From: Nakamurella sp. PAMC28650
Lineage (GTDB): Bacteria; Actinomycetota; Actinomycetes; Mycobacteriales; Nakamurellaceae
Assembly: GCF_014303395.1 (NCBI RefSeq)
Contig: NZ_CP060298.1
Span: 496,001-560,000, forward strand
Length of the DNA: 64,000 nt
Direction: 5' to 3'
Under the pieces are notes generated by a model, which had not been told where the DNA came from, did not search any database, and saw only the letters and a list, made by a program, of their open reading frames with translations. Below are positions 45,694 through 63,679 of the stretch, one piece after another (positions within the stretch are counted from its first letter, which is position 1; every line of letters begins with the position of its first letter). The position numbers and the translations under genes were made by a program.

Positions 45694-46884
45694 TCACTCA
45701 CGCTGACTTCGGGTCCCGCCGGGCGACACGAAACTGCGCTGGGTTCGCACAAGCAGTTGGCCGTCGGCGGGTATGCCGTCGTCCATCGGGGGATCGTAGG
45801 CCAGCCGGTAGCCACGCTTGACCACGGTCTGCACGCACCGCGCGTCCATCAACGCCGACCGCACCCGCGCAACTGCCATCTCGACGGCGTGCTCGTCGGT
45901 GGCGTCCCCCGGTGCGGCACGCAACAGTTCGGCCCGGGACACCACGCGACCCGGATGGCGCATCAGGGTCCGTAGGAGCGCCATCGGTGCGGGCGGCAGC
46001 GGGACGAGTCGGTCGTCGATGACCACTGCCGAGCCCCGGAGCTGCAGCTGGTGCCCGGCGACCCGGAGAGAAGGTGCGCGGGCTGGGAGCACCTCGCCGA
46101 GCTCGCGCACCATGGCACCGATCCGGGCGCGTCCCGGTTGAACGGTCGGCACCTCCCGGCGCTCCAGCGGCGACGCCGTCACGGCGCCGACGCACAACGG
46201 GATCCCCCTGTTGCGAAAGGCTTCCAGCATCCTCTCCTGTTCACCGATCGCGTCCGCTGTGCGCAGCAGGCTGACCACGGCGGGGGCGCTGGTGAAGGCG
46301 ACCGCGTCGACCGCCCCGGTCACGATCAACTCGACCATCCGCAGAAGAGCCGTCATGTCCTCCGGCGGCACCCAGCGGTACACCGGTACCTCGACCACGT
46401 CGGCGCCGGCCGCCCGCAGCGCCTCGACGAAGTCGGGCAGCGGCTCGCCGTGGAGTTGAACGGCGATCCTGACGTTCTCCAGATCCTCGGTCAGTAGATG
46501 ATCGAGCACCTCCGAGCACGATTCCGAGGCCGGAGACCAGGCATCGACCAATCCGGCCAGTCGCTCTCGCAGCGCGTCGCCCAACCCCCAGCCGTCGGCG
46601 GCCTCGATCCAGCCTCGGAATCCGATACCCGTGGTGGCTACGGCAAGATCGATCGGGTCGTCGACACAGGCCCTGGTGGCGGCGAGCAGCTCGGTGTCGT
46701 CGGGCAACGGAACGAGCCGGATCGCGGGGGCATGGGTGACGCGGGCGCCCCGGCGCTCCAGCAGGCTGCCCAATTCGTCCGCCCTGCGCGCGGCGGTGAC
46801 GCCGACCGTCCAGCCGGCGAGCGGCAGGACATCGATTAGCTGTCCACCTGCAGGACAATCGATTTCGCGCGGTTCGGCCTCCAT
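45694..46884 (-). CDS. nnaR: HemD-like/winged-helix regulator of nitrite assimilation
   Basis: A 396-residue fusion: an N-terminal uroporphyrinogen-III-synthase-like domain (GWTVGVTAARRADELGSLLE; LHGEPLPDFVEALRAAGADV; DAVAFTSAPAVVSLL) and a C-terminal OmpR-type winged helix (LPPAPMALLRTLMRHPGRVV; EHAVEMAVARVRSAL; VQTVVKRGYRLAY). This architecture beside nirBD is that of NnaR, known in Streptomyces and mycobacteria as a co-activator of nitrate/nitrite genes with GlnR. Between ALRERLAG and LVDAWSPASES about 17-20 residues normally containing an A-R-G-P-K motif seem to be missing. One-base overlap with nirD. Confidence 0.82.
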   Translation of the reverse strand: MEAEPREIDCPAGGQLIDVLPLAGWTVGVTAARRADELGSLLERRGARVTHAPAIRLVPLPDDTELLAATRACVDDPIDLAVATTGIGFRGWIEAADGWGLGDALRERLAGLVDAWSPASESCSEVLDHLLTEDLENVRIAVQLHGEPLPDFVEALRAAGADVVEVPVYRWVPPEDMTALLRMVELIVTGAVDAVAFTSAPAVVSLLRTADAIGEQERMLEAFRNRGIPLCVGAVTASPLERREVPTVQPGRARIGAMVRELGEVLPARAPSLRVAGHQLQLRGSAVVIDDRLVPLPPAPMALLRTLMRHPGRVVSRAELLRAAPGDATDEHAVEMAVARVRSALMDARCVQTVVKRGYRLAYDPPMDDGIPADGQLLVRTQRSFVSPGGTRSQRE

Positions 46885-47270
46885 CAGACCTCCGGCGGGG
46901 GTGTGGCCCCGGCCGGTCGGACGACCTGGACCAGACCGTCGATGACGCGGACGCGGTAGACCGGAAGTCTGGTTCCGGGTGCATCCAGACAGACCCCGGT
47001 GCGCAGATCGAACACCTGCTTGTACATCGGGGAGGCCACGGTGGCGCTCTGGCCCCGGCTGCCGACGATCCCGCGCGAGATCACGTTGCTGTGGCTGAAC
47101 GGGTCGTGGTTGCCCACGGCCAGCACCTCGTCGTTCCAGAGACGGAAGAGCGCGATCTGCGTCCCACCTATCAGCGCGGCCACACCGCGTTCTCTCAACA
47201 GTTCGTCGAGGCGGAAGATCGCCACCCAGACCACCGGAACCTGCAGCGCGACTGCCGGTGTCGCCTTCAT
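46884..47270 (-). CDS. nirD: Nitrite reductase small subunit (Rieske-like fold)
   Basis: A 128-residue partner of NirB. It shows VWVAIFRLDELLRERGVAAL, IALFRLWNDEVLAVGNHDPF and ISRGIVGSRGQSATVASPMY, the NirD pattern that keeps the Rieske fold but lacks the iron-sulfur Cys/His pairs. Start overlaps the nirB stop by four bases. Together they reduce nitrite to ammonium with NAD(P)H in the cytosol. Confidence 0.95.
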   Translation of the reverse strand: MKATPAVALQVPVVWVAIFRLDELLRERGVAALIGGTQIALFRLWNDEVLAVGNHDPFSHSNVISRGIVGSRGQSATVASPMYKQVFDLRTGVCLDAPGTRLPVYRVRVIDGLVQVVRPAGATPPPEV

Positions 47271-49873
47271 GGCGTGCCCACCCGGAGCCGCGGACCGGCG
47301 ATCAGGCTCGCACTCTCGGTCGGCGTGGCCGGACGGTGCTGCTCGCGTTCGGCGACGAAGACGATGTCCCGGTCTGGCTCACCCGGAGCGTTGACGAACG
47401 AGGTGAACCGGGCCAGGGTGGTGGGATCGTCGATGGCATCACGCCATTCGTCGGAGTAGGACCGGACGTGCTGGGCCATCGCGGCGTCGAGATCGTCGCA
47501 GATCCGCAGCGAGTCCTCCAGCAGGACGGCGCGCAGGTGGTCCAACCCCCCCTCCATGGCTTCGATCCAGACTGCGGTGCGCTGCAGTCGATCCGCGGTC
47601 CGGACGTAGTACATCAGGAACCGGTCGATCACTCGGATCAGCTCGTCGGTCGCCAGATCCTGGGCCAGCATCTCGGCGTGACGAGGTGTGAACCCGCCGT
47701 TGCCGCCGACGTAGAGATTCCAGCCCTTCTCGGTGGCGATGATCCCGAAGTCCTTGCCCCGCGCCTCCGCACACTCCCTGGCGCACCCGGAGACACCGGC
47801 CTTCAGCTTGTGCGGGGACCGCAGTCCGCGATAGCGCAGTTCCAGGTCGATGGCCAACGCCACCGCGTCCTGGACGCCGAAGCGACACCATGCGGACCCG
47901 ACGCACGATTTCACCGTGCGCAGCGACTTGCCGTAGGCATGCCCGGATTCGAACCCGGCGTCGACGAGGCGTCGCCAGATGTGCGGGAGCTGTTCGACGC
48001 GGGCACCGAACAGGTCGATCCGTTGCCCGCCGGTGATCTTCGTGTACAGACCGAAGTCCGCGGCCACCTGACCGATGACGATCAGTTTCGCCGGCGAGAT
48101 CTCCCCGCCCGGGATGCGCGGAACCACCGAGTAGGTGCCGTTCCTCTGGAGGTTGGCCAGGAAGTGATCGTTGGTGTCCTGCAGCGTCGCCTGCTCGCCC
48201 TCCAGGATGTGCCCACCCCCGAGGCTCGCGAGAATGCTGGCGACCACCGGCTTGCAGATGTCGCAGCCGCGGCCGAGACCGTACTCGGCGACAAGTCCGC
48301 TGAAGGTGGTGATCGGCTTGACGCGCACGATGTCGAAGAGGTCGGCACGCGAAAGTTGGGCGAAATGCTCGCACAGGCCATGACTCTGGGCCACCCCCGC
48401 CGCCGCGAGCATCTTCTTCAGCAGCGGCACGCAGCTCCCGCAACCCGTGCCGGCGCGGGTACAGGCTTTCAACGCCGGCACGTCGGCACATCCCTGCCGG
48501 CGGATGGCGTCGTCGATGGAGTCGGCGGTGACACCCGTGCAGGAACAGATCTGTGCCGCTCCGATCGGACCGGCGATCTCGCCACCGGCGCCGACCAGCA
48601 GAGCCTCCGGTGATCCGGGGAGTGGACCGCCGACCGCGCTGCGCAGCAGCGGGTAGGCCGAGGCGTCACCGACCAGGACACCCCCGAGCAACGTCCGGGC
48701 GTCGTCGGACAGGACCAGTTTCTTGTACACCCCCGCCACCGGATCGGCATAGACCACCTCGAGGGCATTCTCGGAGACACCATGGGCATCACCGAAACTT
48801 GCCACCTCGACTCCGAGAAGTTTGAGCTGGGTGGACAGTTCGGTGCCCCCGAACAGGGATGCGCCACCACACAGCCGCTCGGCCACGGTGTCGGCCATCG
48901 AGTAGCCCGGAGCCAGCAGCCCGTAGACACCACCGCCGATGCAGGCGCACTCACCGATGGCCCAGACGGCGGGATCCGCGGTGCGGCAGGCCGCGTCGAC
49001 GACGACGCCACCGCGGGGACCGACCGCAAGTCCGGCGGCACGGGCCAATTCGTCACGGGGGCGGACACCGGCGGCGAAGACCACCAACTCGGCCCCGATC
49101 GATCCTCCGTCGGCGAATTCCACCTGTGAGACGCAGCCGTCCGCGTCCGCCGTCAGTGACGCCATTGCAGTGGCCGCGTGCACCGTGATGCCCAGCGCCT
49201 CCACCTTGCGGCGCAGCATCGACGCACCACCCTCGTCGATCTGCAGCGCCATCAGTCGGGGGGCGAATTCGACCACGTGAGTTCGAAGACCCAGTCCCAG
49301 CAGTGCATTGGCCGCCTCGAGCCCGAGCAGGCCACCGCCGATCACCGCGCCGACGTGCCTACCGCGGGCGTAGGACTTCATGGCCTCGAGATCGGCGATG
49401 GTGCGGTACACGAAGGTTCCGGGCAGGTCGTGCCCGGCGACCGGCGGTACGAAGGGAGAGGAGCCGGTGGCGAGAACCATTGCATCGTAGGTGATCTGCT
49501 CACCCGTGGAAGTGGTGACCACTCGACCGACACGGTCGATGGACACTGCAGCCTGGCTCAGGCGCAGATCCAGCAGAGGATCGTCGTCGTAGAACCCCTC
49601 CGGCACCAGGGTCAGGTCGGACTCGGTACGCCCGGAGAACCACGCCGAGAGCGCCACCCGGTCGTAGGCCGGTCGTGGTTCCTCGGCCAGGACGGTCACC
49701 TTCCAGTGGCCGGCGGTGTCCCTGGCCCGCAGCGATTCCACCAGTCGTTGTCCCACCATGCCATTGCCGACCACGACGAGATGGGCGACCCCCGACTCGA
49801 CGGAATGCGCTGCCCTGACCGTCTTCCCATGCTCGTCGTGTCGGTCCGCCCGCTCGCGTGTGTCAGGTTTCAT
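47267..49873 (-). CDS. nirB: Nitrite reductase [NAD(P)H] large subunit
   Basis: An 868-residue multidomain enzyme. Order: FAD/NAD domain (HLVVVGNGMVGQRLVESL; VRPRDELARAAGL), two BFD-type [2Fe-2S] modules (CSCTGVTADSIDDAI with ACTRAGTGCGSCVPLL; GRGCDICKPVVASIL), ferredoxin-like half domain, and the sirohaem/[4Fe-4S] core (SCVGSAWCRFGVQDA; GVSGCARECAEARGKDFG). All cluster cysteines are present. It uses the ATG at 49873, though its ribosome binding site is weak. Normally transcribed with narK, which is destroyed upstream; a promoter within the 189 bp before nirB would now be needed. Confidence 0.97.
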   Translation of the reverse strand: MKPDTRERADRHDEHGKTVRAAHSVESGVAHLVVVGNGMVGQRLVESLRARDTAGHWKVTVLAEEPRPAYDRVALSAWFSGRTESDLTLVPEGFYDDDPLLDLRLSQAAVSIDRVGRVVTTSTGEQITYDAMVLATGSSPFVPPVAGHDLPGTFVYRTIADLEAMKSYARGRHVGAVIGGGLLGLEAANALLGLGLRTHVVEFAPRLMALQIDEGGASMLRRKVEALGITVHAATAMASLTADADGCVSQVEFADGGSIGAELVVFAAGVRPRDELARAAGLAVGPRGGVVVDAACRTADPAVWAIGECACIGGGVYGLLAPGYSMADTVAERLCGGASLFGGTELSTQLKLLGVEVASFGDAHGVSENALEVVYADPVAGVYKKLVLSDDARTLLGGVLVGDASAYPLLRSAVGGPLPGSPEALLVGAGGEIAGPIGAAQICSCTGVTADSIDDAIRRQGCADVPALKACTRAGTGCGSCVPLLKKMLAAAGVAQSHGLCEHFAQLSRADLFDIVRVKPITTFSGLVAEYGLGRGCDICKPVVASILASLGGGHILEGEQATLQDTNDHFLANLQRNGTYSVVPRIPGGEISPAKLIVIGQVAADFGLYTKITGGQRIDLFGARVEQLPHIWRRLVDAGFESGHAYGKSLRTVKSCVGSAWCRFGVQDAVALAIDLELRYRGLRSPHKLKAGVSGCARECAEARGKDFGIIATEKGWNLYVGGNGGFTPRHAEMLAQDLATDELIRVIDRFLMYYVRTADRLQRTAVWIEAMEGGLDHLRAVLLEDSLRICDDLDAAMAQHVRSYSDEWRDAIDDPTTLARFTSFVNAPGEPDRDIVFVAEREQHRPATPTESASLIAGPRLRVGTP

Positions 49874-50062: not shown

Positions 50063-50189
50063 TCACACGCCTTCCAGTTGTTTCTCCGACTTGCGGACGT
50101 ACACCACATAGGTGACCACGAAACACAACGCGTAGAACACGATGAACCCGACGTACGCCGCATTCGCCGACTTCGTCGCCAGGAACGAC
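50063..50189 (-). pseudogene. narK: narK fragment 3 (C terminus)
   Basis: The last 41 codons of a nitrate/nitrite MFS transporter: SFLATKSANAAYVGFIVF and ALCFVVTYVVYVRKSEKQLE, i.e. the final transmembrane helix and basic tail. The fragment ends abruptly at the IS3-family border at 50190. The preceding about 90 residues of the transporter are absent from the window. Confidence 0.85.
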
Positions 50190-50476
50190 TGAGCCGCCCG
50201 CCGTTTTCCGGACTGTAGAACGGTGACTACTACGCTGCGGAGTTGTTGGCCAACCACCATTGCTCTGCTTCGTTGGGCGTAATGTATCCCAGCGCCGAGT
50301 GCAACCGAACCTGATTGTATCTTAATTCAATGTACCGCGTGATGTCCATCTCCGCCTGTTCACGGGTCGGATAACTAGTACGATTCACCCTTTCCACTTT
50401 CAGTGTGCCGTTGAATGATTCTGCCCAAGCATTGTCATAACACACACCAGTTCGTCCTACCGACCGACGAACTTTG

Positions 50477-52499: not shown

Positions 52500-52793
52500 T
52501 CACTGCGATTTCTTGGCGAAGAAGGCCGTTGCTTTTCCCAGAAATTCGTTCTCCATACGAAGCTCACGCACTTCTTTCTCCAACGCCTTCAGCTTCGCCC
52601 GCTCCGACACGGTCAGTTCCTGCGTGTCGCCGCCGTGACGCTCGCGATGGGCCGCCACCCAGTTCCGCAGGGTCTGCTCCACCAAGCCCAGTTCGCGAGC
52701 AACGTCAGCGATGGGCCGAGATTTGTCGGTCACCTCCCGCACGGCCGTATCCCGAAACTCCGGGGTGTACTTGCCTCGAAACTTGCTCACCAT
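52500..52793 (-). CDS. IS3-family OrfA, copy 1
   Basis: 97 residues from ATG 52793 (GGAGAA upstream): VSKFRGKYTPEFRDTAVREV, PIADVARELGLVEQTLRNWV (helix-turn-helix) and a C-terminal leucine zipper, ERAKLKALEKEVRELRMENE. It overlaps orfB, which lies in the -1 frame. The protein is identical to the copy at 53329. Confidence 0.92.
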   Translation of the reverse strand: MVSKFRGKYTPEFRDTAVREVTDKSRPIADVARELGLVEQTLRNWVAAHRERHGGDTQELTVSERAKLKALEKEVRELRMENEFLGKATAFFAKKSQ

Positions 52794-52856
52794 TTCTCCG
52801 ATCCTTTCCGGCGATTCTACTTGGGGGTCCAAGTCCGGGAAGTACCGGGCTGCTCA

Positions 52857-53265
52857 TTGTACACCGCACCATTACCCACACCCGAGAACAGGAACAACGC
52901 GATGAACCCGACCAGATACAACGGCAACGACTTCGCCAACGCCGCCGACAACACCAACGCCGCCCCCAACGCCATCGCCACAAAATTGTAGAAACTGACC
53001 TTCGCGCCACCGAACCGATCCGCCAACCGCCCACCATAGGGCCGCACCAACGACCCCAGCAACGGACCGAGGAACGTCAGGTACGCCGCCTTGATCGGCG
53101 TGGAGAACGTCCCCTTGAACTGCACCTGCAACACCTGACCGAACGCGAACCCGAACCCGATGAACGAACCGAACGTCCCGATGTACAACAACGCGATGAT
53201 CCAGGTGTTGCGGTCCCGCACCACCCGGCGCATCGCGCCCCTGGCATTGGCCGCGACCGTCAGAT
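52857..53265 (-). pseudogene. narK: narK fragment 2 (middle)
   Basis: About 136 codons from the second half of the transporter: GAMRRVVRDRNTWIIALLYI, GTFGSFIGFGFAFGQVLQVQ, LGPLLGSLVRPYGGRLADRF, GGAKVSFYNFVAMALGAALV and SGVGNGAVYN, the second nitrate-signature region of NarK proteins. It is flanked by inverted, identical IS3 ends at 52856 and 53266. Same orientation as the N- and C-terminal fragments. Confidence 0.9.
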
Positions 53266-53328
53266 TGAGCAGCCCGGTACTTCCCGGACTTGGACCCCCA
53301 AGTAGAATCGCCGGAAAGGATCGGAGAA

Positions 53329-53622
53329 ATGGTGAGCAAGTTTCGAGGCAAGTACACCCCGGAGTTTCGGGATACGGCCGTGCGGGAGGTGACCGACAAA
53401 TCTCGGCCCATCGCTGACGTTGCTCGCGAACTGGGCTTGGTGGAGCAGACCCTGCGGAACTGGGTGGCGGCCCATCGCGAGCGTCACGGCGGCGACACGC
53501 AGGAACTGACCGTGTCGGAGCGGGCGAAGCTGAAGGCGTTGGAGAAAGAAGTGCGTGAGCTTCGTATGGAGAACGAATTTCTGGGAAAAGCAACGGCCTT
53601 CTTCGCCAAGAAATCGCAGTGA
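53329..53622 (+). CDS. IS3-family OrfA, copy 2
   Basis: 97 residues, identical to copy 1: HTH segment PIADVARELGLVEQTLRNWV and leucine zipper ERAKLKALEKEVRELRMENE. Intact, with the orfB GTG overlapping its stop by four bases in the -1 frame. Confidence 0.92.
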   Translation: MVSKFRGKYTPEFRDTAVREVTDKSRPIADVARELGLVEQTLRNWVAAHRERHGGDTQELTVSERAKLKALEKEVRELRMENEFLGKATAFFAKKSQ

Positions 53623-54199
53623 GCAGAAAGTATGCATTCATTGCGAGTGAAGAAGGCCACTACCCGCTGCACCTGATGTTCCGCTGGGCGAAGGTGTCGA
53701 AGTCCGGCTTCTACGAGTGGAAGGGTCGCGGGCCGTCCTACACCAGCCGGCGCCGCACCCATCTTGCTCGGCTGATCACGGCGTTGTTCGAGGCCTCCGA
53801 TGGGACCTACGGCTACCGTCGGGTACACGCTGACCTGCTGCGATCGGGCTATTGGGCTGATGACGACACGGTCCGGCAGATCATGCGGGAGCTCGACCTG
53901 GTGCCATGCCAGCCCCGTCCGTTTCGGCCGGTCACTACCATCGCCGGCGACACCGGTCAGACCCCTGACCTGGTAAAACGGCACTTCAACGCGGTCGTGC
54001 CGGGTACGAAGCTGGTCGGTGACATCACCTATATCCCGACCTGGGAGGGCTGGCTGTACTTGGCGACCGTGCTGGACTGCGCTACGAAGAAAGTCGTCGG
54101 CTACGCAATGGCAGATCACATGCGGGCATCGCTGGTGGTTGACGCTCTGAAAATGGCCGCACGTAATGTCAGGATTGTTCCCGATGTCAGCATATTTCA

Positions 54200-55580
54200 G
54201 GCTCTTGTGACGTTCTCGTGGGTGGTTTGACCCCTGGTTGTGGGCGACACACCGGGCTGCGTATAGGTTCTGGCTTATCTAGGGTCAGTCACTATCCAGG
54301 AGCACGGTGTGCGCGGTGTAACGATATGGCGAAAGCTGCTCGGTGTCGAGCAACTGCAGGTGTGCGATGTGGCGTGGGAGGAGGCCGACGACCGGCAGGT
54401 GCTGGTCGTTTCGGTGCGTGCGACGAAGGGCGCCCGGAGTAGGTGCAGTCGATGCCGGCGTAGACGGCCGGGCTATGACCAGGGCGGCGGAACCCGGCGG
54501 TGGCGGTCGCTGGACTGGGGGTCGACGATGGTATTCCTGCAGGCTGCGGCTCCGCGGGTGAACTGCCGGACGCACGGGGTGGTCGTCGCGGCGGTGCCGT
54601 GGGCCCGACCCGGCGCGCGGGCAACCCGAGCGTTTGAGGACCAGTGCGCGTGGTTGGCGGCGCACACCGCTTCGTCGGTGGTGGCGCAGTTGATGCGGAC
54701 GTCGTGGCGGCACGTGAGCGCAATCATCGAGCACGTCGTCGCCGACGGTTTGGCCGGCCGGGACGTGCTCGCGGGGCTGCAGCGGATCGGCATCGATGAA
54801 ATCTCCCACCGCAAAGGCCAGCGGTATCTGACGTGCGTGGTCGATCAAGACTCCGGCAGATTGGTGTGGGCCGCACCGGGCCGCAACAGCGACACCCTGG
54901 GTCGGTTCTTCGACGAGCTCGGCCCAGAACGGGCGGCGGCGTTGACGCACGTCTCGGCCGACGGGGCGCAGTGGATCCACGACACCGTGACGGCCCGCGC
55001 GCCGCAGGCGGTGCTGGGATTGGATCCGTTTCATATCGTGGGGTGGGCCACCCGGGAGTTGGACAAGGTCCGTCGTCAGACGTGGAACACGCTGCGGGGT
55101 AGGAGTAGCTCTGCGCAGGCGTCGTCGGTGAAGGGCAGCCGCTGGGCATTGCTGAAAAACCCGGCGGACCTGTCCCCGGAGCAACGCGGGTCGGTCGCCT
55201 CGATCGCCCAGACCAACCGGCATCTGTATCGGGCGTATCTGCTGAAGGAGCAACTGCGCGCGGTGTTCCAGGTCAAGGGCCAGGCCGGCCGTGAACTGTT
55301 GGCCGGCTGGATCGCCTGGGCCCGCCGCTCCCAACTCCCCGGCTTCATCGCCCTGGCCGCAACGTTGAAGCGGTTCCAGCAGCTGATTTGGAACACCCTG
55401 ATCCACCACATGAGCAACGCCCAATCCGAGGCCACCAACACCCACCTACGGGCCTTGACCCGCAGGTCGTACGGCTTTCACAGCCCAGAAGCGTTGATAG
55501 CCATGGCAATGCTCACCCGCGGCGGGTTATGCCCGCCGCTTCCCGGACGCTAAACCACCCACGAAAACGTCAGGAGACCC
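54200..55580 (+). mobile_element. ISL3-family element, copy 2
   Basis: 1381 bp with 8-bp target duplication ATATTTCA (54192-54199 and 55581-55588). Terminal sequences match copy 1. Same orientation as the host IS3 copy. Same length as copy 1 but with base differences spread along it. Confidence 0.93.
54309..55553 (+). CDS. ISL3-family transposase, copy 2
   Basis: 414 residues, intact. QRIGIDEISHRKGQRYLTCV, AVLGLDPFHIVGWATREL and HHMSNAQSEATNTHLRALTR hold the DDE residues. Differences from copy 1 are concentrated in the N-terminal zinc-finger stretch (CDVAWEEADDRQVLVVSVRA versus LDMEWEGAAGQQVLVVSVRP). Confidence 0.93.
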   Translation: MRGVTIWRKLLGVEQLQVCDVAWEEADDRQVLVVSVRATKGARSRCSRCRRRRPGYDQGGGTRRWRSLDWGSTMVFLQAAAPRVNCRTHGVVVAAVPWARPGARATRAFEDQCAWLAAHTASSVVAQLMRTSWRHVSAIIEHVVADGLAGRDVLAGLQRIGIDEISHRKGQRYLTCVVDQDSGRLVWAAPGRNSDTLGRFFDELGPERAAALTHVSADGAQWIHDTVTARAPQAVLGLDPFHIVGWATRELDKVRRQTWNTLRGRSSSAQASSVKGSRWALLKNPADLSPEQRGSVASIAQTNRHLYRAYLLKEQLRAVFQVKGQAGRELLAGWIAWARRSQLPGFIALAATLKRFQQLIWNTLIHHMSNAQSEATNTHLRALTRRSYGFHSPEALIAMAMLTRGGLCPPLPGR

Positions 55581-55606
55581 ATATTTCACAGTGACCGCGG
55601 AAGCCA

Positions 55607-57060
55607 AACCAGACTCAACCGGTGGTAGCAACACTCGGCTCCTGCAGTAATAGTAGCTGCTCGGCCATCGCTTCCGCCGGTGTCTTCCAGCCGAGCGTTT
55701 TGCGGGGTCGGTCGTTCAATGCATCAGCGACGGAGTCAATTTCTGCGGCGCACCAGCGGGATAGGTCGGTTCCTTTCGGGAAGTACTGACGTAGCAGGCC
55801 GTTCGTGTTTTCGTTCGTACCCCGCTGCCAAGGGCTGTGCGGATCGGCGAAGAACACCGCCATACCAGTCTCGGCCTTTAGAGAGACATGCGCGGCCAGT
55901 TCCTTGCCACGGTCCCAGGTCAACGACTGACGCAACTCCCGCTGCACTGCAACCATTTTCGCGACAATACTGTCCTTGGTTGCGGTCGCGCCGTAACCGC
56001 TCAATGCGGGACCGTTCTTCACCGGCGGCTCAAGTCCGTAGCCTTCCATTCGCGGCAGGTGCAGCAGGATCGTGAACCTGGTCATCCGTTCCACGACGGT
56101 GCCGATCGCTGACCGGCCGGTGCCGATGATGAGGTCGCCCTCCCAGTGGCCGGCGGTCTTCCGATCGTCGGCCTCGGCGGGCCGCTTATCGATCGTCACC
56201 TCCGGAGTCACGTGGCCGGTGGCTCGCTTTCGGGCTCTCGCCCGGGGGACCCGCAACGCCCGTCCGGTCCGCAGACACGGCACCAAATCGCGCTCCAAGG
56301 CGCCGCGGTCCTTGATGTACAGGGCCTGATAGATCGCCTCGTGGGAGATGCGCATCGTCGGGTCGTCGGGGAAGTCGATCGGCAGGCGGTGGGCGATCTG
56401 TTCCGGGCTCCACGCTGTCACCCACCGCCGGTCCTGGCGGTGAGGCTTGTTACGCCCCTTCCATTTTGCAACGACTGGTCCCGGTACGACAGTGCCGTCC
56501 GCGGCGCGGATGACCCCGGCCAGGCGGTCCTGGACATGGCCACGAAGCCGATCGTTCGTCACCAACTTGGCCGTCTTGGGACGGCGGGCCATCAGCTCGG
56601 CCTTCCACTGGGCAGTCGACGCTCGATACTCCAACTGGCCGCCACGAGTTGCGGCATTGCGGCGCAGCTCCCGCGAGATCGTCGATGGCGACCGACCCAG
56701 GCGGCGGGCGACCTCACGCACTCCGTTGCCCTGCGCTGTCAGCAGAGCGATGTCCTCTCGCTCAACAAACGAGAGATATCTGCCCGACGGGGGCTGCAGT
56801 TCAATCAGCGGCATGCCGCCACTGTCGCGGAACCAACGCGTCCCGACGGGCCCCGACACGCCGCACGCCGTCGCGGCGTCTTCGCTGGTCATCCCTTTCG
56901 CGATGTTGCGCCAAAATACCCGTTCGACATCCCGGCGGGCCGGCGGCCGCCCGGGCGACCGCATCGCCGGCCGCCCGGTCATCGACATCATCCGATCCGA
57001 AGCTGGACCCATTGCAAGACCTCCACTCTCGGGAGTGTTGCGACGACCAGTTGAATCCGC
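55607..57060 (-). mobile_element. IS30-family element
   Basis: 1454 bp between two CCA triplets (55604-55606, 57061-57063), the probable target duplication. The ends are imperfect inverted repeats: ACTCAACCGGTGGTAGCAAC at the left and ATTCAACTGGTCGTCGCAAC as complement of the right. Inserted in IS3 orfB copy 2. Exact borders may be off by two bases. Confidence 0.88.
55615..57012 (-). CDS. IS30-family transposase
   Basis: 465 residues from ATG 57012. N-terminal HTH REVARRLGRSPSTISRELRR, then the integrase core: KTAGHWEGDLIIGTGRSAIG (Asp), RQSLTWDRGKELAAHVS (Asp) and DPHSPWQRGTNENTNGLLRQ (Glu), ending in the typical RPRKTLGWKTPAEAM. Apparently complete and potentially active. Confidence 0.94.
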   Translation of the reverse strand: MGPASDRMMSMTGRPAMRSPGRPPARRDVERVFWRNIAKGMTSEDAATACGVSGPVGTRWFRDSGGMPLIELQPPSGRYLSFVEREDIALLTAQGNGVREVARRLGRSPSTISRELRRNAATRGGQLEYRASTAQWKAELMARRPKTAKLVTNDRLRGHVQDRLAGVIRAADGTVVPGPVVAKWKGRNKPHRQDRRWVTAWSPEQIAHRLPIDFPDDPTMRISHEAIYQALYIKDRGALERDLVPCLRTGRALRVPRARARKRATGHVTPEVTIDKRPAEADDRKTAGHWEGDLIIGTGRSAIGTVVERMTRFTILLHLPRMEGYGLEPPVKNGPALSGYGATATKDSIVAKMVAVQRELRQSLTWDRGKELAAHVSLKAETGMAVFFADPHSPWQRGTNENTNGLLRQYFPKGTDLSRWCAAEIDSVADALNDRPRKTLGWKTPAEAMAEQLLLLQEPSVATTG

Positions 57061-57389
57061 CCAGTACTGCTCTCAGGACTTCGCTGACCTCACTACCCAC
57101 CTCAAAGTTCGTCGGTCGGTAGGACGAACTGGTGTGTGTTATGACAATGCTTGGGCAGAATCATTCAACGGCACACTGAAAGTGGAAAGGGTGAATCGTA
57201 CTAGTTATCCGACCCGTGAACAGGCGGAGATGGACATCACGCGGTACATTGAATTAAGATACAATCAGGTTCGGTTGCACTCGGCGCTGGGATACATTAC
57301 GCCCAACGAAGCAGAGCAATGGTGGTTGGCCAACAACTCCGCAGCGTAGTAGTCACCGTTCTACAGTCCGGAAAACGGCGGGCGGCTCA

Positions 57390-57412
57390 CCCACGAGAAC
57401 GTCACAAGAGCC
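57390..57412 (-). mobile_element. Solo 23-bp end of a third ISL3 element
   Basis: The sequence is the exact complement of the first 23 bases of the ISL3 left end (as at 50477). It directly abuts the IS3 copy 2 terminus on one side and ATACATTA, start of a duplicated IS3 tail, on the other. It is what remains of an ISL3 copy inserted in another IS3 copy. Confidence 0.88.
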
Positions 57413-57510
57413 ATACATTACGCCCAACGAAGCAGAGCAATGGTGGTTGGCCAACAACTCCGCAGCGTAGTAGTCACCGTTCTACAGTCCGGAAAACGGC
57501 GGGCGGCTCA
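57413..57510 (+). mobile_element. Solo 98-bp 3' end of a third IS3 element
   Basis: Identical to the last 98 bases of IS3 copy 2 (57292-57389), including the codons for ITPNEAEQWWLANNSAA and the terminal repeat. It borders the N-terminal narK fragment. With the ISL3 remnant it shows that a third IS3 copy, itself hit by ISL3, once occupied this site. Confidence 0.9.
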
Positions 57511-57730
57511 ACTGCGGCCCCAGGAACAACACCAACACCGACCACAAACTCCACACCGAGAACCCGATGTGCTCCGACAACACCGAGAACCACAGATTCC
57601 GACGGGCCACCCTCTCCCCACCGCTGTTCCAGAAATCCAGATCCTCCGGACGCCAATCATCGATCCAACGTCTGCCGCGGCGAACTGGTTCGAGTTCCTG
57701 GGTGGGGGCGGTGGTCGTCGTCGAACTCAT
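57511..57730 (-). pseudogene. narK: narK fragment 1 (N terminus)
   Basis: 73 codons from ATG 57730: MSSTTTTAPTQELEPVRRG, RRWIDDWRPEDLDFWNSGGE and ARRNLWFSVLSEHIGFSVWS, then LWSVLVLFLGPQ. This is the N-terminal tail and first helix of a NarK nitrate/nitrite transporter. The next roughly 190 residues are missing. The three fragments total about 756 bp of a gene normally near 1.35 kb. Confidence 0.92.
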
Positions 57731-58003: not shown

Positions 58004-58705
58004 TCAGGGCGAGCTGGTCCGTCGGCCGCGCACGAGGAGATACCCGACACCGATCAACGCCAGCACGCCGACACCCAGGGCCGATCCGGCCAGCAAGGTG
58101 GGGGTGCTGCCACCGGTCGTCGCGGGCGTCACCTGGCTGACGTCGGCGGCCACGGCTGCGCCGGCCGGAGTGGTGTCGGCAGCGAGACTCAGTACTGGAG
58201 CCGGGAAGTCGGGCTCGGGTGCGCCGGCCACCGGTAGCTGGATCCAGCTGACGACCGATCCGTCGCCATAGGTCTGCAGGACCTTGAACACGAGCTGCTT
58301 CACCTTCGGGAGCGGATCGGCCAGGACCTCGAACTCGTCGAACTGGTGGGGTGCGATCCCGCCGGCGGTGGCCGTCCAGGTGATGCGCGTGACGATCTCG
58401 GTCACTGCCTGTCCGTTCTCGGCCTTCAGGGGGGCCACCGGCACCGCGGTGGTGACCTTTTCGGTCCACCCGGTCCTGGGCCTCACCGAGACGTTCGTGA
58501 TCGGGGTGTCGGTCGGCAGCGCCACCTCGACCTTGGTGGTTGGGACGTCCTTCTCCGTCGGCACCCGGAAGGTCAGCACTCCGTCGCCGCCCTGGGTGGC
58601 ACCCGGCGCGGTGACCACGACATGCGCCGAGGCGGCGCCCGCCAGTGGACCGATCAGCAGGACGGCGATGAACGCGGTGGCGGCGAGCAGGCGTCGGGTG
58701 CGCAT
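58004..58705 (-). CDS. YcnI/DUF1775 copper-binding protein
   Basis: A 233-residue exported protein. The ATG at 58705 has GGAGAAG upstream. Signal peptide MRTRRLLAATAFIAVLLIG is followed by AASAHVVVTAPGATQGG, so cleavage after ASA would leave an N-terminal His, the copper-binding feature of YcnI. The domain continues VLTFRVPTEKDVPTTKVEVA and FEVLADPLPKVKQLVFKVLQ and SWIQLPVAGAPEPDFPAPVL; a C-terminal transmembrane helix (LLAGSALGVGVLALIGVGYL) and basic tail anchor it. Last gene of a six-gene run next to CopC-CopD. Confidence 0.9.
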   Translation of the reverse strand: MRTRRLLAATAFIAVLLIGPLAGAASAHVVVTAPGATQGGDGVLTFRVPTEKDVPTTKVEVALPTDTPITNVSVRPRTGWTEKVTTAVPVAPLKAENGQAVTEIVTRITWTATAGGIAPHQFDEFEVLADPLPKVKQLVFKVLQTYGDGSVVSWIQLPVAGAPEPDFPAPVLSLAADTTPAGAAVAADVSQVTPATTGGSTPTLLAGSALGVGVLALIGVGYLLVRGRRTSSP

Positions 58706-58745
58706 CGATCTTCTCCATGGGTGGGTGCGGCGACGGGCCGGGTGG

Positions 58746-60458
58746 TCAGCGGGTGCGGACGGTGAAAAGAGTCGTGGTGCTGTCGATGTCACTGGTCTGG
58801 GTGGTGACGGCCAGCTGCCAGGTGCCGACCGTCGAGAGCTCGACACGCGTCAGGTCGTAGTGCCCCGGAGCTGTGCGCAGCAGCTGGACGGGGACGACGT
58901 CGACGAATTTGCCGGCGCCGTCGGTGTAGGTGAAATGCATGTCGTTCAGCCCGACCCGGGCAGGATCCACCTCGACCTGGATGCGGAGGTCGGCAGTCAC
59001 CGACGACGAGTTGGTGAAGACCGGGAAATAATTGTCCTTGGCCGGCGGAGTAGAGACCAGTACAGCGGTCACCGCAAGCACCACCAGTGCGATTGCGGTC
59101 TCGAGGAACACGCTGCGTCGCAGGAGTCGGACCGCTCCGGGGGGCGCTGCGCCCGCCGGAATCCCGGTGACCGGCGCGCTGTCGCGCCCCGTGGAGATCG
59201 ACCCGCCGCCGGCGGTGACCAGGCTGGCCCGCGTCAGGAGGACCGCGGCGGACTGCGGCACCGGACGAAGATAGCTCCGCCTGACCCTGGCTCTGGCCAC
59301 CGCAGCCAGCACGAGCATGATCGCGACGAGTCCCACCTTGACGAGCAGGAGTCTTCCGTAAGTCGTGCCGGTCAGGGCACCGGGTTCGCGCACCTGACGC
59401 CAGCCGGCGAACGTGCCGGTGACGACCAGCACGACGACGGCGAACTCCGCATACCGCGACCATCGGGGCATCACGACCGCCAGGTCGGCGGGCGATCGGC
59501 GCCGCAGGACCACCGCGGCCAGCAGCACGAGACCGCCCAACCAGGCGGACGCCGCAGACAGATGCAGCACGTCGGCCGGTAGGCCCAGGACGGCCAGCTC
59601 GCCATCCCCGGCGTGGCCGATCAACGAGGTGCTCAGCAGCAGACCGACACTCACGACGCCCGACGCCGCTCCCAGGACCCTGGGCCGGACCCGGCCGAGC
59701 CGGAGCAGCACCACGGCCGCTGCGATCAACAGGATCAGCCGGAGCGCGGTGACCATGCCATAGGGCGTCTGCAGGACCTTGACGATCAGTTCCGGGTCGA
59801 AGGCGTAGACCAGCGGCAGTCCCTCCGAGTAGGGCCCCTGCAGCAACAGACCTCCCACGCTGCCGACCAACGCCAGCACCCAGCTCACCCTCAGCATTCG
59901 TCGGACGCCCCGCACGGTCTGTCCGGCGGGCCACAGGACGAACACGAAAGCCAGGCCGCCAACCAGCAGGAGCAACCCCAGATACAGGACCCAGCGGGAG
60001 ATGTCGAGCAGATCCTGCGCGGCTCGGCCCTCACCGGCCTGCTCCGCAGCCGCTGCGGTCCCCGCCCCGGTCGCGCTGATCTTCCCGATGCTGAAGGTGG
60101 AGGCACCAAACACCGTGTGGCTGTCGGCACTGAGCACTCGCCACAGGATGGTGTAGGTACCCGGCTGCAGACTCGCCCGCAGCGGTTCGACCACGGTCCG
60201 TCCGCCGTCGCGGGTGGTCACCTGGCCCGTATCGACCCGAGAACCGTCCGGGGCCAGCACCTTCACCGCACCGAAGGCCGTGCTGACCGGCTGGTCGTAC
60301 CGCAGGCTGACCTCCGCCGGAGCCCGGCCGATCACCGAACTGTCCGCCGGGGTGGACTGCACCAGCGTGGCGTGCGCGGAGGCCGGCACGGCCGGCAGCA
60401 CCAGCAGCAGGAGTACCAGCAGGACCACACCGACCGATTTCGAACGAATCGACGTCAT
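58746..60458 (-). CDS. CopC-CopD fusion protein
   Basis: A 570-residue membrane protein. After a signal segment the mature part starts HATLVQSTPADSSVIGRAPA, the CopC domain with its N-terminal His; SADSHTVFGASTFSIG holds the second conserved His-containing motif. From about residue 155 eight or so membrane helices form CopD (DISRWVLYLGLLLLVGGLAF; SLIGHAGDGELAVLGLPADV; LHLSAASAWLGGLVLLAAVV). A C-terminal extracytoplasmic beta domain (FPVFTNSSSVTADLRIQVEV) ends it. CopC binds copper outside the cell and CopD is thought to pass it inward. ATG 60458 preferred. Confidence 0.92.
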   Translation of the reverse strand: MTSIRSKSVGVVLLVLLLLVLPAVPASAHATLVQSTPADSSVIGRAPAEVSLRYDQPVSTAFGAVKVLAPDGSRVDTGQVTTRDGGRTVVEPLRASLQPGTYTILWRVLSADSHTVFGASTFSIGKISATGAGTAAAAEQAGEGRAAQDLLDISRWVLYLGLLLLVGGLAFVFVLWPAGQTVRGVRRMLRVSWVLALVGSVGGLLLQGPYSEGLPLVYAFDPELIVKVLQTPYGMVTALRLILLIAAAVVLLRLGRVRPRVLGAASGVVSVGLLLSTSLIGHAGDGELAVLGLPADVLHLSAASAWLGGLVLLAAVVLRRRSPADLAVVMPRWSRYAEFAVVVLVVTGTFAGWRQVREPGALTGTTYGRLLLVKVGLVAIMLVLAAVARARVRRSYLRPVPQSAAVLLTRASLVTAGGGSISTGRDSAPVTGIPAGAAPPGAVRLLRRSVFLETAIALVVLAVTAVLVSTPPAKDNYFPVFTNSSSVTADLRIQVEVDPARVGLNDMHFTYTDGAGKFVDVVPVQLLRTAPGHYDLTRVELSTVGTWQLAVTTQTSDIDSTTTLFTVRTR

Positions 60459-60480
60459 GAGGCCCCCCGGCCGGCTCGTG

Positions 60481-61239
60481 TCATGAGAGCTTCCTGGCCA
60501 GCAGCTGCATCTGCGTGATCTCGGCCGCCACACTGGACTGGATCTCCTGCGCGAGCGCTCTGGCCTGCGGGTTCGAGCAGTTCGCGACGGACGCCTTCGC
60601 GATCGCCATCGCGGCCTGATCGTCTGCGATGGCGATCGACAGGAACTTGCGGTCGAACGCCGATCCCTTCAGCCTGGTCAGCGTGGCCGCGTCGGTCGCG
60701 GCGCTGTTGCTCCCCCCGCCGTGGTCGTGGCCGGAAGCTGCCGCCGGGTCGGTCGAGGGCACCGGCTGACCCCAGGCCCGCGCCATCGCCGACATCTTCA
60801 GGTAGGTCGTCCCCTGTGCCGCATCGATCTTGGACGCCAGCGCCCTCACCTCGGCATCGGCTGCCCGGGTCGGGGCGAGCTCCGCCTCCTGGGCAGCGAC
60901 CGCGTAGTGCGGGACCATCCAGCTGATGAAGGCCGTGTCCCACCCGTCGTAGACGGTCGAGATCCCGTTCACGGAGGTCGGAGCGGCACCGGCATGGGCG
61001 ACGCAGCACACCCCGCCGTCGAGCGCGGTCAGCGCAGTACCGGGGGCATCCGCCCCGCTCTGCGGGACAGCCTGCGACACGGGCGCTGACGCACCGCCCG
61101 ACCCACCGTCCGAGTTGCCGGTCGGCAGCGGTGCGAACCCGCACGCGGCGAGGGTCGCGAGCAGAACGGCGGTGGCCACAGCGCGGCGACCCGTGCGTGC
61201 CGTCATCGGCGAATGTGGGGGAAGGCGGGACAGAGGCAC
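60481..61239 (-). CDS. DUF305-like lipoprotein with degenerate His motifs
   Basis: 252 residues. The GTG at 61239 has GGAG eight bases upstream; signal peptide RRAVATAVLLATLAAC ends in a lipobox. The DUF305 helices are recognisable as DTAFISWMVPHYAVAAQEAE and DRKFLSIAIADDQAAMAIAK, but the usual M-I-x-H-H pairs are reduced to one His in the first and none in the second. Additional potential metal ligands are GGVCCVAHAG (about residue 80) and SGHDHGGG (about 170). Likely metal-related envelope protein in the copper operon. Confidence 0.82.
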   Translation of the reverse strand: MPLSRLPPHSPMTARTGRRAVATAVLLATLAACGFAPLPTGNSDGGSGGASAPVSQAVPQSGADAPGTALTALDGGVCCVAHAGAAPTSVNGISTVYDGWDTAFISWMVPHYAVAAQEAELAPTRAADAEVRALASKIDAAQGTTYLKMSAMARAWGQPVPSTDPAAASGHDHGGGSNSAATDAATLTRLKGSAFDRKFLSIAIADDQAAMAIAKASVANCSNPQARALAQEIQSSVAAEITQMQLLARKLS

Positions 61240-61290
61240 GACCTGATCTCCTGATCTTCAACGATGGCGGCCAACGGGACCGGGACCGGC

Positions 61291-61785
61291 CTACTTCCCG
61301 GCCGAGTAGTCGAACGACCCGTCCGGGTTCCAACGGGCCTTCGCACCCGCCTCGCCCGTCTGGTACGTCAGCACCAGCACTGCGAGGGCGACCACCGTCA
61401 CGCCGGAGGCGACCGTCCAGCCCACCCACCCCTGATGGGACCGGCCCTCGAGGACGGCCACCAGGATCGCCGCCACGAACAACACCAGCAGTGCGATCAT
61501 CAACCGGTCAGCAAACTGCTCGTGCTGCGAGATGAGCGCCCCGCTCAGATTTCCCGGTCCGGTCAGTTGCGTCCCCAGTGCGGTACGGAGCGCCTTCCCG
61601 CTCTGGATGGAAACGAACACCGCACCGACCGCGATCGCCGCGACGACCAGGAACGGCCACCTCAACCTGCTGCGCCACCTCGGCACCACGAACGCGATTC
61701 CGGTCACGGCCGCCAACGGCGCGAAGACCACCGCTACGTGCAGGACCAGCGCGTGCACCGGTAACCCGTGAAAATCTCCGAACAC
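61291..61785 (-). CDS. DUF2231 membrane protein
   Basis: 164 residues with four hydrophobic helices and the family start FHGLPVHALVLHVAVVFAPL (conserved His pair that may bind haem or metal). The C-terminal tail GAKARWNPDGSFDYSAGK is extracytoplasmic. DUF2231 proteins are frequently near Rieske or cytochrome genes. Gaps of about 50 bp separate it from its operon neighbours. Confidence 0.85.
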   Translation of the reverse strand: MFGDFHGLPVHALVLHVAVVFAPLAAVTGIAFVVPRWRSRLRWPFLVVAAIAVGAVFVSIQSGKALRTALGTQLTGPGNLSGALISQHEQFADRLMIALLVLFVAAILVAVLEGRSHQGWVGWTVASGVTVVALAVLVLTYQTGEAGAKARWNPDGSFDYSAGK

Positions 61786-61833
61786 GACGAACTCCTCCCG
61801 GAAAGGTGGGGCCGCAACGAACGCCGTCCCGCG

Positions 61834-62343
61834 TCAGCCCAATTTGATGGTGCCGCCGGAAACGGTCACCTTCGCCTCGGCGAGCGGGGCGGTGGCCGGT
61901 CCGTTGATCACCGACCCGTCCTTGATGGAGTAGCTGCTGCCGTGGCAGGGACAGGTGATGGCCCCGTTCGCCACACTGGCGACGATGCATCCCTGGTGGG
62001 TGCAGACCGCGGTGAAAGCTTTGTAACTGCCCGCGGTCGGCTGCGTGACCACGATCTTGGCCGCCTCGAAGATCACACCACCACCGACCTTCACGGCGGC
62101 GGCACTGCCCAGACCGTTCTCCGCCGCCGCTGCGCCGGACACCGCGGCCGCGGACGTCGGCGCCGGTGCGACGTCACCGATCGCGTTGGCCTCGACCGTG
62201 GAGTTGGCCGGATCGGAAGAAGCCGTGGAACTCGCGGCGGCAGCCGTCGTGCCCGCACTGCTGCACGCAGCCAGAGTGGCCCCGGCGGCCGCGACTGCGG
62301 CTCCGTAGAGGGCGGTCCGGCGGTCGATCGAGTAGTTCGTCAT
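61834..62343 (-). CDS. Rieske [2Fe-2S] lipoprotein
   Basis: 169 residues from ATG 62343 (AAGGA five bases upstream; another ATG six bases earlier is too close to it). The signal TNYSIDRRTALYGAAVAAAG with twin Arg and a lipobox LAAC suggests Tat export and lipidation, followed by an Ala/Ser-rich linker. The cluster motifs are AVCTHQGCIVASV and ITCPCHGSSYSIKDGS, both complete. It could pass electrons to or from the neighbouring membrane proteins; partner unknown. Confidence 0.93.
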   Translation of the reverse strand: MTNYSIDRRTALYGAAVAAAGATLAACSSAGTTAAAASSTASSDPANSTVEANAIGDVAPAPTSAAAVSGAAAAENGLGSAAAVKVGGGVIFEAAKIVVTQPTAGSYKAFTAVCTHQGCIVASVANGAITCPCHGSSYSIKDGSVINGPATAPLAEAKVTVSGGTIKLG

Positions 62344-62404
62344 CGTCATCCTTGTCTGTGCTGGGGGCGGCGCAGGCGGCCGCAGGTTCGGCCCGGTCGA
62401 AGGG

Positions 62405-63679
62405 TCAGGTGGTGACGTCCTGCGCCGGGGACGGGGTGCCGAACGCGGAGTACGGCACGAACTGGATCTCGTGAGGCATTGCCTCCATGGGGATCTCGTT
62501 GATCAGCTTGCCGGTGTCGGTCTCCCAGATCTGCACACCCTCGACCGGCTGACCGCCGAGCAGGAACGGGTACCGCGAGGTCGACATACCGTGGTTGAGG
62601 GTCCAGAGTTCCTTGCCATCCGGGCTCAGCCCGGTGTGCGCGGGAATGACGGTGCCCTTGGAGGCCCACAGCGTCTGGTAGTTGCTGGTGTTCACCTTGA
62701 AGATGGAGTTGTCCGAGGTGGCGATGTAGGCGAACTTGCTGTCCGGGCTGATGCTGATGTGGATCGGCGAGCCCTCGATCGGTAGTTTCTTGATGATCTT
62801 GAGCGTCGTGTTCTCGATCACCCAGACCTCCTTGAAGGCGAGACCGGCCAGCCACACGTGCTTTCCGTCCGGAGTGATGTTGACGCCGTGGGCGGTGGCC
62901 GGCATCGGGATCTGCTTGACGATCTTGTTGGTCCTCCAGTCGATGACGGCCAGGGTCTTGGCGCCGTCGACCGTCACGAAGAGGTAGGGGGTGTCGATGG
63001 CCTTGCCGTCCCAGTACATGCTCTGCGAGATGTAGTCGGGGCCGGCACCGACGGGGATGCTTCCGATGTTCTTCATGCTCGCCGTGTCGATGATCGAGAC
63101 GTCCGCGCCGTACTGGTTGGCCACGTAGAGGTATTTGTCGTCCGGGGTCAGCGAGATGTGGTGCGAGCCTTTGCCTGCCTCGACTCGGGCGACCTCCCGC
63201 AATGTCAGTGGGTCGTACTCGATGACGGTGGACACGTCGTAGGTGAAGGCACTCGCGGTGAACATCCGCTTGAAGTCCTTGGTGAAGACGATGGCGTGCG
63301 AGTCACGGATGTTCGGGTACTTCGACGGGTCCGTCCGCGGGTGATAAGTGCCCGCATTGGTGATCGCCGTCACCGTCTTGTGGGATTTGGCGTCGATGAT
63401 GAAGAGTTTGTTGCTCTGCCCCGCACCGATCACGGCAATACCCGACCAGCCCACCCTGCCGCCGGCATTCATCACTTCGAAAGCCTTGGAGGCAGAGGAC
63501 TCGACGCCTGGGGTGGCGGCCGTAGGAGCGGCCGAGGCCGCTGTCGTCCCGGCCGAGGCCGCACCCTTGCTCGAGTCCGTGCACGCCGTTGCCGCCAGGG
63601 CGACCGCACCGGCGGACGCTGCAAGAAAACCGCGCCGGCCGAGCCTCTTGGCCTCGGCGGCAGTGGGGCTTTCGTTCAT
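62405..63679 (-). CDS. YVTN-type beta-propeller lipoprotein
   Basis: 424 residues. Tat-like signal RLGRRGFLAASAGAVALAAT with lipobox ATAC; then repeated propeller blades such as SHHISLTPDDKYLYVANQYG, DVSIIDTASMKNIGSIPVGA, AHGVNITPDGKHVWLAGLAF and IHISISPDSKFAYIATSDNS. About seven blades fit the length. Propellers of this kind bind metals, haem or partner proteins. First gene of the six-gene envelope operon; GAGGAAG precedes the ATG. Confidence 0.88.
   Translation of the reverse strand: MNESPTAAEAKRLGRRGFLAASAGAVALAATACTDSSKGAASAGTTAASAAPTAATPGVESSASKAFEVMNAGGRVGWSGIAVIGAGQSNKLFIIDAKSHKTVTAITNAGTYHPRTDPSKYPNIRDSHAIVFTKDFKRMFTASAFTYDVSTVIEYDPLTLREVARVEAGKGSHHISLTPDDKYLYVANQYGADVSIIDTASMKNIGSIPVGAGPDYISQSMYWDGKAIDTPYLFVTVDGAKTLAVIDWRTNKIVKQIPMPATAHGVNITPDGKHVWLAGLAFKEVWVIENTTLKIIKKLPIEGSPIHISISPDSKFAYIATSDNSIFKVNTSNYQTLWASKGTVIPAHTGLSPDGKELWTLNHGMSTSRYPFLLGGQPVEGVQIWETDTGKLINEIPMEAMPHEIQFVPYSAFGTPSPAQDVTT

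Follow-up and report, generated by a model that had tools for sequence, protein, structure and literature searches.

A six-gene operon occupies positions 58004-63679 on the minus strand of a 64,000-nucleotide stretch of the Nakamurella sp. PAMC28650 genome (contig NZ_CP060298.1, positions 496,001 to 560,000), the whole of which is referred to here as the window. It probably builds a copper-cluster propeller oxidoreductase together with a Rieske partner and a dedicated copper supply, a reading to which we assign a probability of roughly 0.6 and in which we infer the binding of copper, the electron partner, the substrate and the direction of the reaction. To our knowledge, copper-cluster propellers are known from very few enzymes, namely NosZ, which is the biological sink of nitrous oxide (N2O), and thiocyanate dehydrogenase (TcDH). 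An earlier, sequence-only reading of this DNA had offered the propeller as a scaffold or metal sensor; it is better read as a copper enzyme, given that histidines of its inner strands are invariant and that its predicted model resembles NosZ. That reading missed both the NosZ/TcDH-like histidine pattern of the propeller and the narK-nirB-nirD nitrogen context downstream of the operon.

In the proposed mechanism, a lipoprotein propeller exported by the twin-arginine translocation (Tat) route would hold a multi-copper cluster in its central tunnel at the cell surface. Much as in NosZ and TcDH, the ligands would be the histidines at the inner-strand starts of blades 1, 2, 4, 5, 6 and 7, possibly joined by D215 of blade 3. 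Since the propeller carries no CuA domain, electrons would be exchanged between the copper cluster and the Rieske lipoprotein, which in turn would be wired to the quinone/cytochrome pool of the membrane, perhaps through the DUF2231 protein. The CopC-CopD fusion and YcnI would import copper, the DUF305 protein would pass it on, and the substrate of the enzyme would be a small compound of nitrogen, or of sulfur and nitrogen, in a setting of nitrate/nitrite assimilation. The components of the operon, in the order of transcription, are as follows.

62405..63679, minus strand: seven-bladed propeller of 424 amino acids, Tat-type lipoprotein and proposed copper-cluster enzyme (Pfam/NCBIfam, orthologue alignment, predicted model, fold match)
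H128, H173, H174, H264, H307, H348 and H403, plus H363 and D215, same gene, minus strand: inner-strand histidine array of the propeller (histidine placement)
61834..62349, minus strand: Rieske [2Fe-2S] lipoprotein of 171 amino acids, Tat-type, CTHQGC...CPCHGS (Pfam, alignment)
61291..61785, minus strand: DUF2231 membrane protein of 164 amino acids, GTG start, invariant H11, H16 and H88 (Pfam, alignment)
60481..61239, minus strand: DUF305/CopM-like lipoprotein of 252 amino acids, invariant VCC, PH and GHxH (Pfam, NCBIfam, alignment)
58746..60458, minus strand: CopC-CopD fusion, YcnJ-like copper importer, ATG at 60458 (Pfam, alignment)
58004..58705, minus strand: YcnI (DUF1775) copper-binding protein, ATG at 58705 (Pfam, alignment)

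All six open frames are retained by a codon-position GC filter, and open frames and Pfam bear out the genes and family names given in the sequence-only reading. The Pfam E-values are 2.1e-12 for the YncE-like propeller, 2.6e-13 for Rieske, 1.6e-8 for DUF2231, 8.7e-27 for DUF305, 1.2e-22 and 4.3e-16 for CopC and CopD in a single chain, and 3.7e-40 for DUF1775/YcnI; these assignments also support the earlier pairing of copper-type families with extracytoplasmic electron-transfer proteins. For CopC-CopD and YcnI, starts at the ATG codons 60458 and 58705 are more likely than those of the longest frames. With the starts chosen, the gaps from the propeller to YcnI are 55, 48, 51, 22 and 40 bp, in agreement with the one-operon layout and the 22-61 bp spacing previously proposed. 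Lipoprotein and Tat assignments were made by inspecting the sequences by eye. Two of the three lipoproteins claimed earlier stand, with clear lipoboxes in the Rieske and DUF305 proteins; the third is less certain, as the propeller N-terminus RRGFLAASAGAVALAATAC has a twin-arginine start but a weak lipobox; that of the orthologue from Rhodococcoides kyotonense is good (LAAC). Judged from titles and the openings of abstracts, no account of the six-gene operon was found in the PubMed Central literature, whose coverage mostly leaves out subscription papers.

The histidine array of the propeller carries much of the argument. Nine core histidines are invariant across the four orthologues (100, 128, 173, 174, 264, 307, 348, 363 and 403), and seven of them stand at the starts of innermost strands, two on blade 2 and one each on blades 1, 4, 5, 6 and 7 (hypergeometric P about 7e-6, with the slots defined post hoc from the model and the strand start of blade 3 inferred). 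Blade by blade, the order is H128 / H173-H174 / D215 / H264 / H307 / H348 / H403-E404. In the NosZ proteins of S. meliloti and of five Actinomycetota genomes, exactly seven propeller histidines are invariant: blade 1 has two of them, and blades 2 and 4-7 have one each, where blade numbers for NosZ and TcDH are our own counting. This set reads H132,H133/H181/-/H340/H407/H448/H510 in the numbering of the L037 protein. PDB titles of P. stutzeri NosZ mutants list H129A, H130A, H178A, H326A, H382A, H433A and H494A, and these seven positions are what we take to be the CuZ ligands. Set against the seven CuZ histidines, the propeller likewise has seven inner-strand histidines by count, of which three, H264, H307 and H403, fall on ligand positions of NosZ in 6/6 MAFFT settings (AHG/PHG, PIH/PLH, MPH/EPH) and the others correspond by blade order only. 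H363 pairs in all six settings with an invariant NosZ lysine (Lys469 in L037 numbering, within LNK). The N-terminal blades align variably, NosZ H181 falling on H128 in four settings and on H173 in two; because this pairing is ambiguous by sequence, blades were assigned by counting them in the model. The active site of TcDH comprises K103, H135, H136, Q156, H206, E288, D314, H381, H437, H482, H528, D529 and R544, according to the legend of Fig. 4 in PMC6504805; grouped by blade, the residues compared here are H135,H136/H206/D314/H381/H437/H482/H528,D529. The sharpest single observation is that the residue set of the modelled propeller appears to be nearly that of TcDH, as compared through that legend and on predicted blades, with the double histidine shifted from blade 1 to blade 2.

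The predicted fold points in the same direction. AlphaFold2 models of the window protein (model 1; pLDDT, the predicted local distance difference test, 71; pTM, the predicted template modelling score, 0.72) and of the R. kyotonense core (model 2; pLDDT 74, pTM 0.79) both have seven blades by manual strand count. NosZ chains fill structural ranks 2-28 in both, behind a single plain propeller, with Z 36.2-36.9, root-mean-square deviation 2.2-3.0 and 318-324 aligned residues for model 1, and Z 32.7-33.8, deviation 2.8-3.9 and 314-327 aligned residues for model 2. The best lactonase-type propellers are 6nau for model 1 (Z 34.2) and 1ri6, titled a putative isomerase, for model 2 (Z 32.5). TcDH rows are listed at Z 30.4-31.4 and 29.5-30.4, respectively. 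A viral structure library gave WD40/BTB, YncE/lactonase-like and other or unnamed proteins among the 50 matches listed, none of them named as a copper enzyme.

At the level of family profiles, the best NCBIfam match of the window propeller is L-NosZ (NF052460), with 133.5 bits and its best stretch over profile positions 82-321 of 480, compared with 65 bits for the YVTN-repeat model. L-NosZ is the clade III lactonase-type NosZ, as described in papers that cite He et al. (2025, Nature). It is the best family for 3/3 members of the propeller family scanned and for 0/5 other propellers, and it does not beat the YVTN-repeat model for L007, L008, L026, L027 or L011. All three scanned members, out of four, miss its cut-off of 700 bits (133.5, 107.3 and 107.4). 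A search with NF052460 for true L-NosZ in 396 Actinomycetota genomes gave 15 that match at E 1e-30 or better and none over the cut-off; two of the 15 were scanned and proved to be Sec-type NosZ, and three more have the CuA motif in the alignment. The distant homologues L007 and L008 (25-27% identical) and the plasmid propellers L026 and L027 were considered as family members and set aside as other YncE-type proteins. The former two come from metagenome-assembled genomes of Acidobacteriota (L007 9262-10260, L008 1816-2817) and have histidines at the inner strands of three blades; the L007 propeller adjoins a gene read as a pyrroloquinoline quinone (PQQ)-type dehydrogenase. L026 (7557-8696, on a Pseudorhizobium flavum plasmid) encodes a propeller with inner-strand histidines beside genes for a multicopper oxidase, a cytochrome c and a copper-binding protein, and is possibly a different copper propeller.

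Several results weigh against reading the operon as a unit built around a copper enzyme. The lead of L-NosZ is narrow in N. endophytica (107.3 versus 98.3 bits for the next family), five generic propellers score 62-96 bits with NF052460, two Sec-type NosZ proteins reach 230.7 and 210.1 bits, above 133.5 and helped by their CuA end, and 4/14 control genomes match the profile at 1e-5. Since generic propellers match and Sec-type NosZ scores higher, the L-NosZ score is a pointer rather than a proof, and the weight is therefore placed on the histidine array and the fold match. The NosZ models TIGR04244 and TIGR04246 give 27 and 18.4 bits, far below the 625-bit cut-off, and at the sequence level the likeness to NosZ proper is slight (84% probability in hhalign, over residues 257-410 only). 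As for the fold, the two models rest on four sequences at a mean pLDDT of 71 and 74, and the lowest NosZ row of model 2 (Z 32.7) ties with 1ri6 (32.5), so that NosZ stands only slightly above lactonase-type propellers there. Within the array, the histidine pair lies on blade 2 and not on blade 1 as in NosZ, and H348 falls five residues off the NosZ blade-6 ligand in 6/6 settings and meets it only when S. meliloti NosZ is the sole NosZ aligned. Inner-strand histidines occur on several blades of other YncE propellers as well, three in L007 and L008. At 1e-12, 37/61 genomes have Rieske-like proteins and 34 of these 37 lack the propeller, which counts against a tight unit and makes the Rieske part a common module. 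Finally, the halophiles Thiohalobacter and Guyparkeria have Cus genes instead of copCD beside TcDH (PMC6504805). The top structural match of both models is the plain surface-layer YVTN propeller 1l0q (Z 38.5 and 36.6), which would suit an ordinary protein-binding or surface propeller whose histidines are purely structural. With seven of the nine invariant histidines at inner-strand starts and the L-NosZ score at about twice that of the YVTN-repeat model, such a protein is considered very improbable, and a copper enzyme remains the preferred interpretation.

The relation of this candidate copper enzyme to the Nos system has to be considered separately. With NosZ it shares an exported seven-bladed propeller, seven inner-strand histidines by count and the top structural family after 1l0q; it differs in the position of the histidine pair, in having His363 in place of the invariant lysine, and in its lack of a C-terminal CuA cupredoxin domain. 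The chain ends after blade 7 with no counterpart of CxxFCxxxHxxM, and a Pfam scan of the six operon proteins found no cupredoxin. The last ~159 or so positions of the L-NosZ profile, which canonical NosZ matches through its CuA end, have no counterpart either, and this separates the propeller from L-NosZ, its best NCBIfam match. NosD has no match at 1e-5 in any of the four genomes that carry the propeller, whereas all four control genomes in which a NosZ-type protein matches have a NosD match within a few kb of it (E no higher than 1.6e-56, each score under the cut-off of 300; two of these controls, G706 and G672, were confirmed as NosZ by sequence). NirK exceeds its cut-off in 0/4 propeller genomes, with weak matches of 42-48 bits in two, and TIGR04244 found no match in R. 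kyotonense or N. endophytica, the two of the four genomes searched with it. With no CuA, no NosD match and no NirK over the cut-off, the unit falls outside the Nos systems and the organisms that carry it do not resemble ordinary denitrifiers as far as tested; a canonical denitrifier was thus rejected on the NirK result in 4/4 genomes, NorB and NarG not having been searched. By these sequence tests, the propeller is not a member of NosZ or L-NosZ. An N2O reductase of a new sort, with a CuZ-like propeller and Rieske electrons replacing CuA, clearing N2O that arises from nitrate use or comes from outside, would have the L-NosZ score, the NosZ structural ranks and the nitrogen locus in its favour. 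In addition, clade II N2O respiration in Wolinella needs a Rieske/cytochrome bc complex, as the title of Hein et al. (2017) states. Given the missing CuA domain, the unmatched NosD, the exchange of lysine for His363 and the NirK result, we regard this as unlikely.

As a working unit, TcDH offers the closest parallel. In Thioalkalivibrio, the copper propeller TcDH is exported by the Tat route, and copCD and a putative electron acceptor are encoded next to it and induced together with it on thiocyanate (PMC5744179). TcDH donates its electrons to an external cytochrome c, and thiocyanate can serve T. paradoxus as its only source of nitrogen (both PMC9456337). Tat export, a proposed external electron partner, the copCD genes of Thioalkalivibrio and an apparently similar H...D...H order of active-site residues are features in common. 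A small-anion oxidase of this kind would pass electrons from thiocyanate or a similar nitrogen compound through the Rieske protein to the respiratory chain and free the nitrogen, in keeping with a locus that serves nitrogen assimilation. The structural match to TcDH is weaker than that to NosZ and lies below lactonase-type propellers, the HH pair of TcDH is on blade 1, and its cytochrome c partner and sulfur-oxidiser setting contrast with the Rieske protein and nitrate assimilation of the operon. Such an oxidase is possible, though unlikely. Our estimates for the N2O and thiocyanate-like versions lie within the claim of a copper-cluster oxidoreductase, not against it, the rest of that claim being taken up by another or an unknown substrate.

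The partner proteins are consistent with this proposed oxidoreductase. The cluster and disulfide motif of the Rieske protein, CTHQGC...CxCH, is invariant in 4/4 orthologues and conforms to the bc-type CxHxxC...CxCH pattern; disulfide-type Rieske proteins are of high potential. Three histidines of the DUF2231 protein are kept in 4/4 orthologues, and haem binding by them is only a guess. CopC and CopD are fused and adjoin YcnI (DUF1775), as in YcnJ/YcnI, and the histidine at the predicted mature start of both CopC and YcnI is invariant across orthologues. A C-terminal YtkA domain on CopC-CopD is over the Pfam cut-off in one of the four proteins, just below it in a second, weak in that of the window and unlisted in the remaining one. 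In B. subtilis, the YcnJ/YcnI system exchanges Cu(II) and sustains respiration when copper is limiting, according to the abstracts of PMC12362106 and PMC13344008. Because of this analogy, CopC-CopD and YcnI look like a copper import and supply set; the operon differs in that the YcnK regulator is not among its six genes and in being tied to a propeller-Rieske pair. The DUF305 protein is over its Pfam cut-off (94.5 versus 27 bits) and reaches 47.2 bits with the CopM model NF049983, below the cut-off of 90. In the window copy, the HH pair and the QM motif that the three orthologues keep are gone, with ADDQ in place of xHHx and QE in place of QM. As the window propeller keeps all invariant histidines, this may be read as partial decay or as a changed copper hand-over.

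With 3/6 proteins in copper-type families and a CopM-like, if sub-threshold, DUF305 protein, the operon could instead be a copper homeostasis unit in which the propeller is a surface copper store, chaperone or sensor and the narK neighbour reflects shared control. Also in favour of such a role, the model of the zinc chaperone AztD weakly matches two other YncE propellers, though not that of the operon. Copper homeostasis genes are widespread, whereas the propeller is very rare, and both the Rieske gene and the link to narK are kept in 4/4 genomes, so that this explanation appears improbable and a copper enzyme with its own supply is preferred.

The propeller was sought in a scan of 84,980 species genomes by exact peptide patterns, which divergent members would escape. 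Close relatives were found only in N. endophytica (71% identical, tblastn), in G306, a third genome of the same genus, and in R. kyotonense (69%); together with that of the window, these are the four propeller genomes referred to above. Propeller matches occur in 10/61 genomes overall, those beyond the close relatives being partial and 24-31% identical. In samples that overlap and in which the genome of the query is itself counted, the propeller is present in 3/397 genomes of the order, 1/296 of the class, 1/396 of the phylum and 1/37 of the genus of R. kyotonense, the last being R. kyotonense itself. In 4/4 propeller genomes, all six genes are clustered with a NarK-type gene. Co-occurrence of the propeller and the copper genes, which the sequence-only reading had put forward as a check, is thus upheld with no separation seen; the refutation named there, frequent separation from the copper genes, did not hold for the propeller. 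The arrangement varies in detail. In G306, the DUF2231 gene (29% identical) is placed after narK and not between the Rieske and DUF305 genes. In N. endophytica, YcnI and narK are separated by a uroporphyrinogen-III synthase gene on the opposite strand, while the far side of narK has a NirB and a nitrate reductase resembling NasC (723 bits against a cut-off of 1100). In R. kyotonense, narK-nirB-nirD continues past the operon. A secreted esterase/depolymerase-like gene, judged from translations, adjoins the operon upstream in N. endophytica (L005 8414-9601) and downstream in G306 (L025 17949-18902).

In the window, a narK-type transporter gene begins 273 bp past YcnI (NarU model, 40.7 bits on an 82-residue start, below the cut-off). 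Tblastn with the N. endophytica NarK showed it to be broken into three pieces by insertion sequences, and genes of nitrite reduction follow.

57515..57730, minus strand: 5' piece of narK (nitrate/nitrite transporter), next gene downstream of YcnI (NCBIfam, tblastn)
52832..53314, minus strand: middle piece of narK, within the insertion-sequence island (tblastn with N. endophytica NarK)
50066..50191, minus strand: 3' piece of narK (tblastn with N. endophytica NarK)
47267..49873, minus strand: NirB, nitrite reductase large subunit (NCBIfam TIGR02374, 1022 bits, over cut-off)
46884..47270, minus strand: NirD, nitrite reductase small subunit (NCBIfam TIGR02378, 94 bits, over cut-off)
45694..46884, minus strand: uroporphyrinogen-III synthase, which would supply siroheme for NirB (NCBIfam NF005568, 476.6 bits, over cut-off)

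The insertion-sequence island (window 50000-57515) separates the narK pieces and nirB. It holds two ISL3-family transposases (50586-51830 and 54309-55553) that are 90% identical in DNA, two identical inverted IS3-like copies (51923-52856 and 53266-54199, of which one transposase was scanned) and, at 55615-57012, a gene read as a further transposase from its helix-turn-helix domains. The 287 bases at 57103-57389 have an identical inverted copy at 50190-50476, and 98 of them occur once more at 57413-57510; these repeats adjoin the narK break points. Upstream of the propeller, a pyridoxamine-oxidase-like protein is accompanied by frames that appear unrelated by eye, and one other frame that was scanned gave no Pfam match. 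One expression for an FNR-like site had no match in the 350 bp upstream of the four propeller orthologues. A TGTGAG-N5-GTTGACG stretch is common to the three Nakamurella-type propeller upstream regions (L003 at about 4820 on the minus strand, L005 at about 9810, and L025 upstream of the propeller) and is weaker in R. kyotonense, as judged by eye.

A further group of copper-cluster propellers, with another arrangement of histidines, no CuA domain and a Rieske partner, would show how sites of this kind can be assembled and connected where the Nos machinery is missing. The unit comprises just six genes, and two of its four bearers are named isolates with strain-collection numbers, which makes it directly testable. 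It is doubtful, though worth stating, that these nitrate-assimilating actinobacteria without NirK harbour a further N2O-reductase-like enzyme, free of CuA, independent of NosD, fed with Rieske electrons and with copper from CopC-CopD and YcnI, that converts N2O or carries out a new conversion of a nitrogen compound. Were this true, N2O-reductase-like activity would escape surveys of nosZ genes; turnover of N2O would add an uncounted sink for this gas, while turnover of another nitrogen compound would constitute a new step in nitrogen use.

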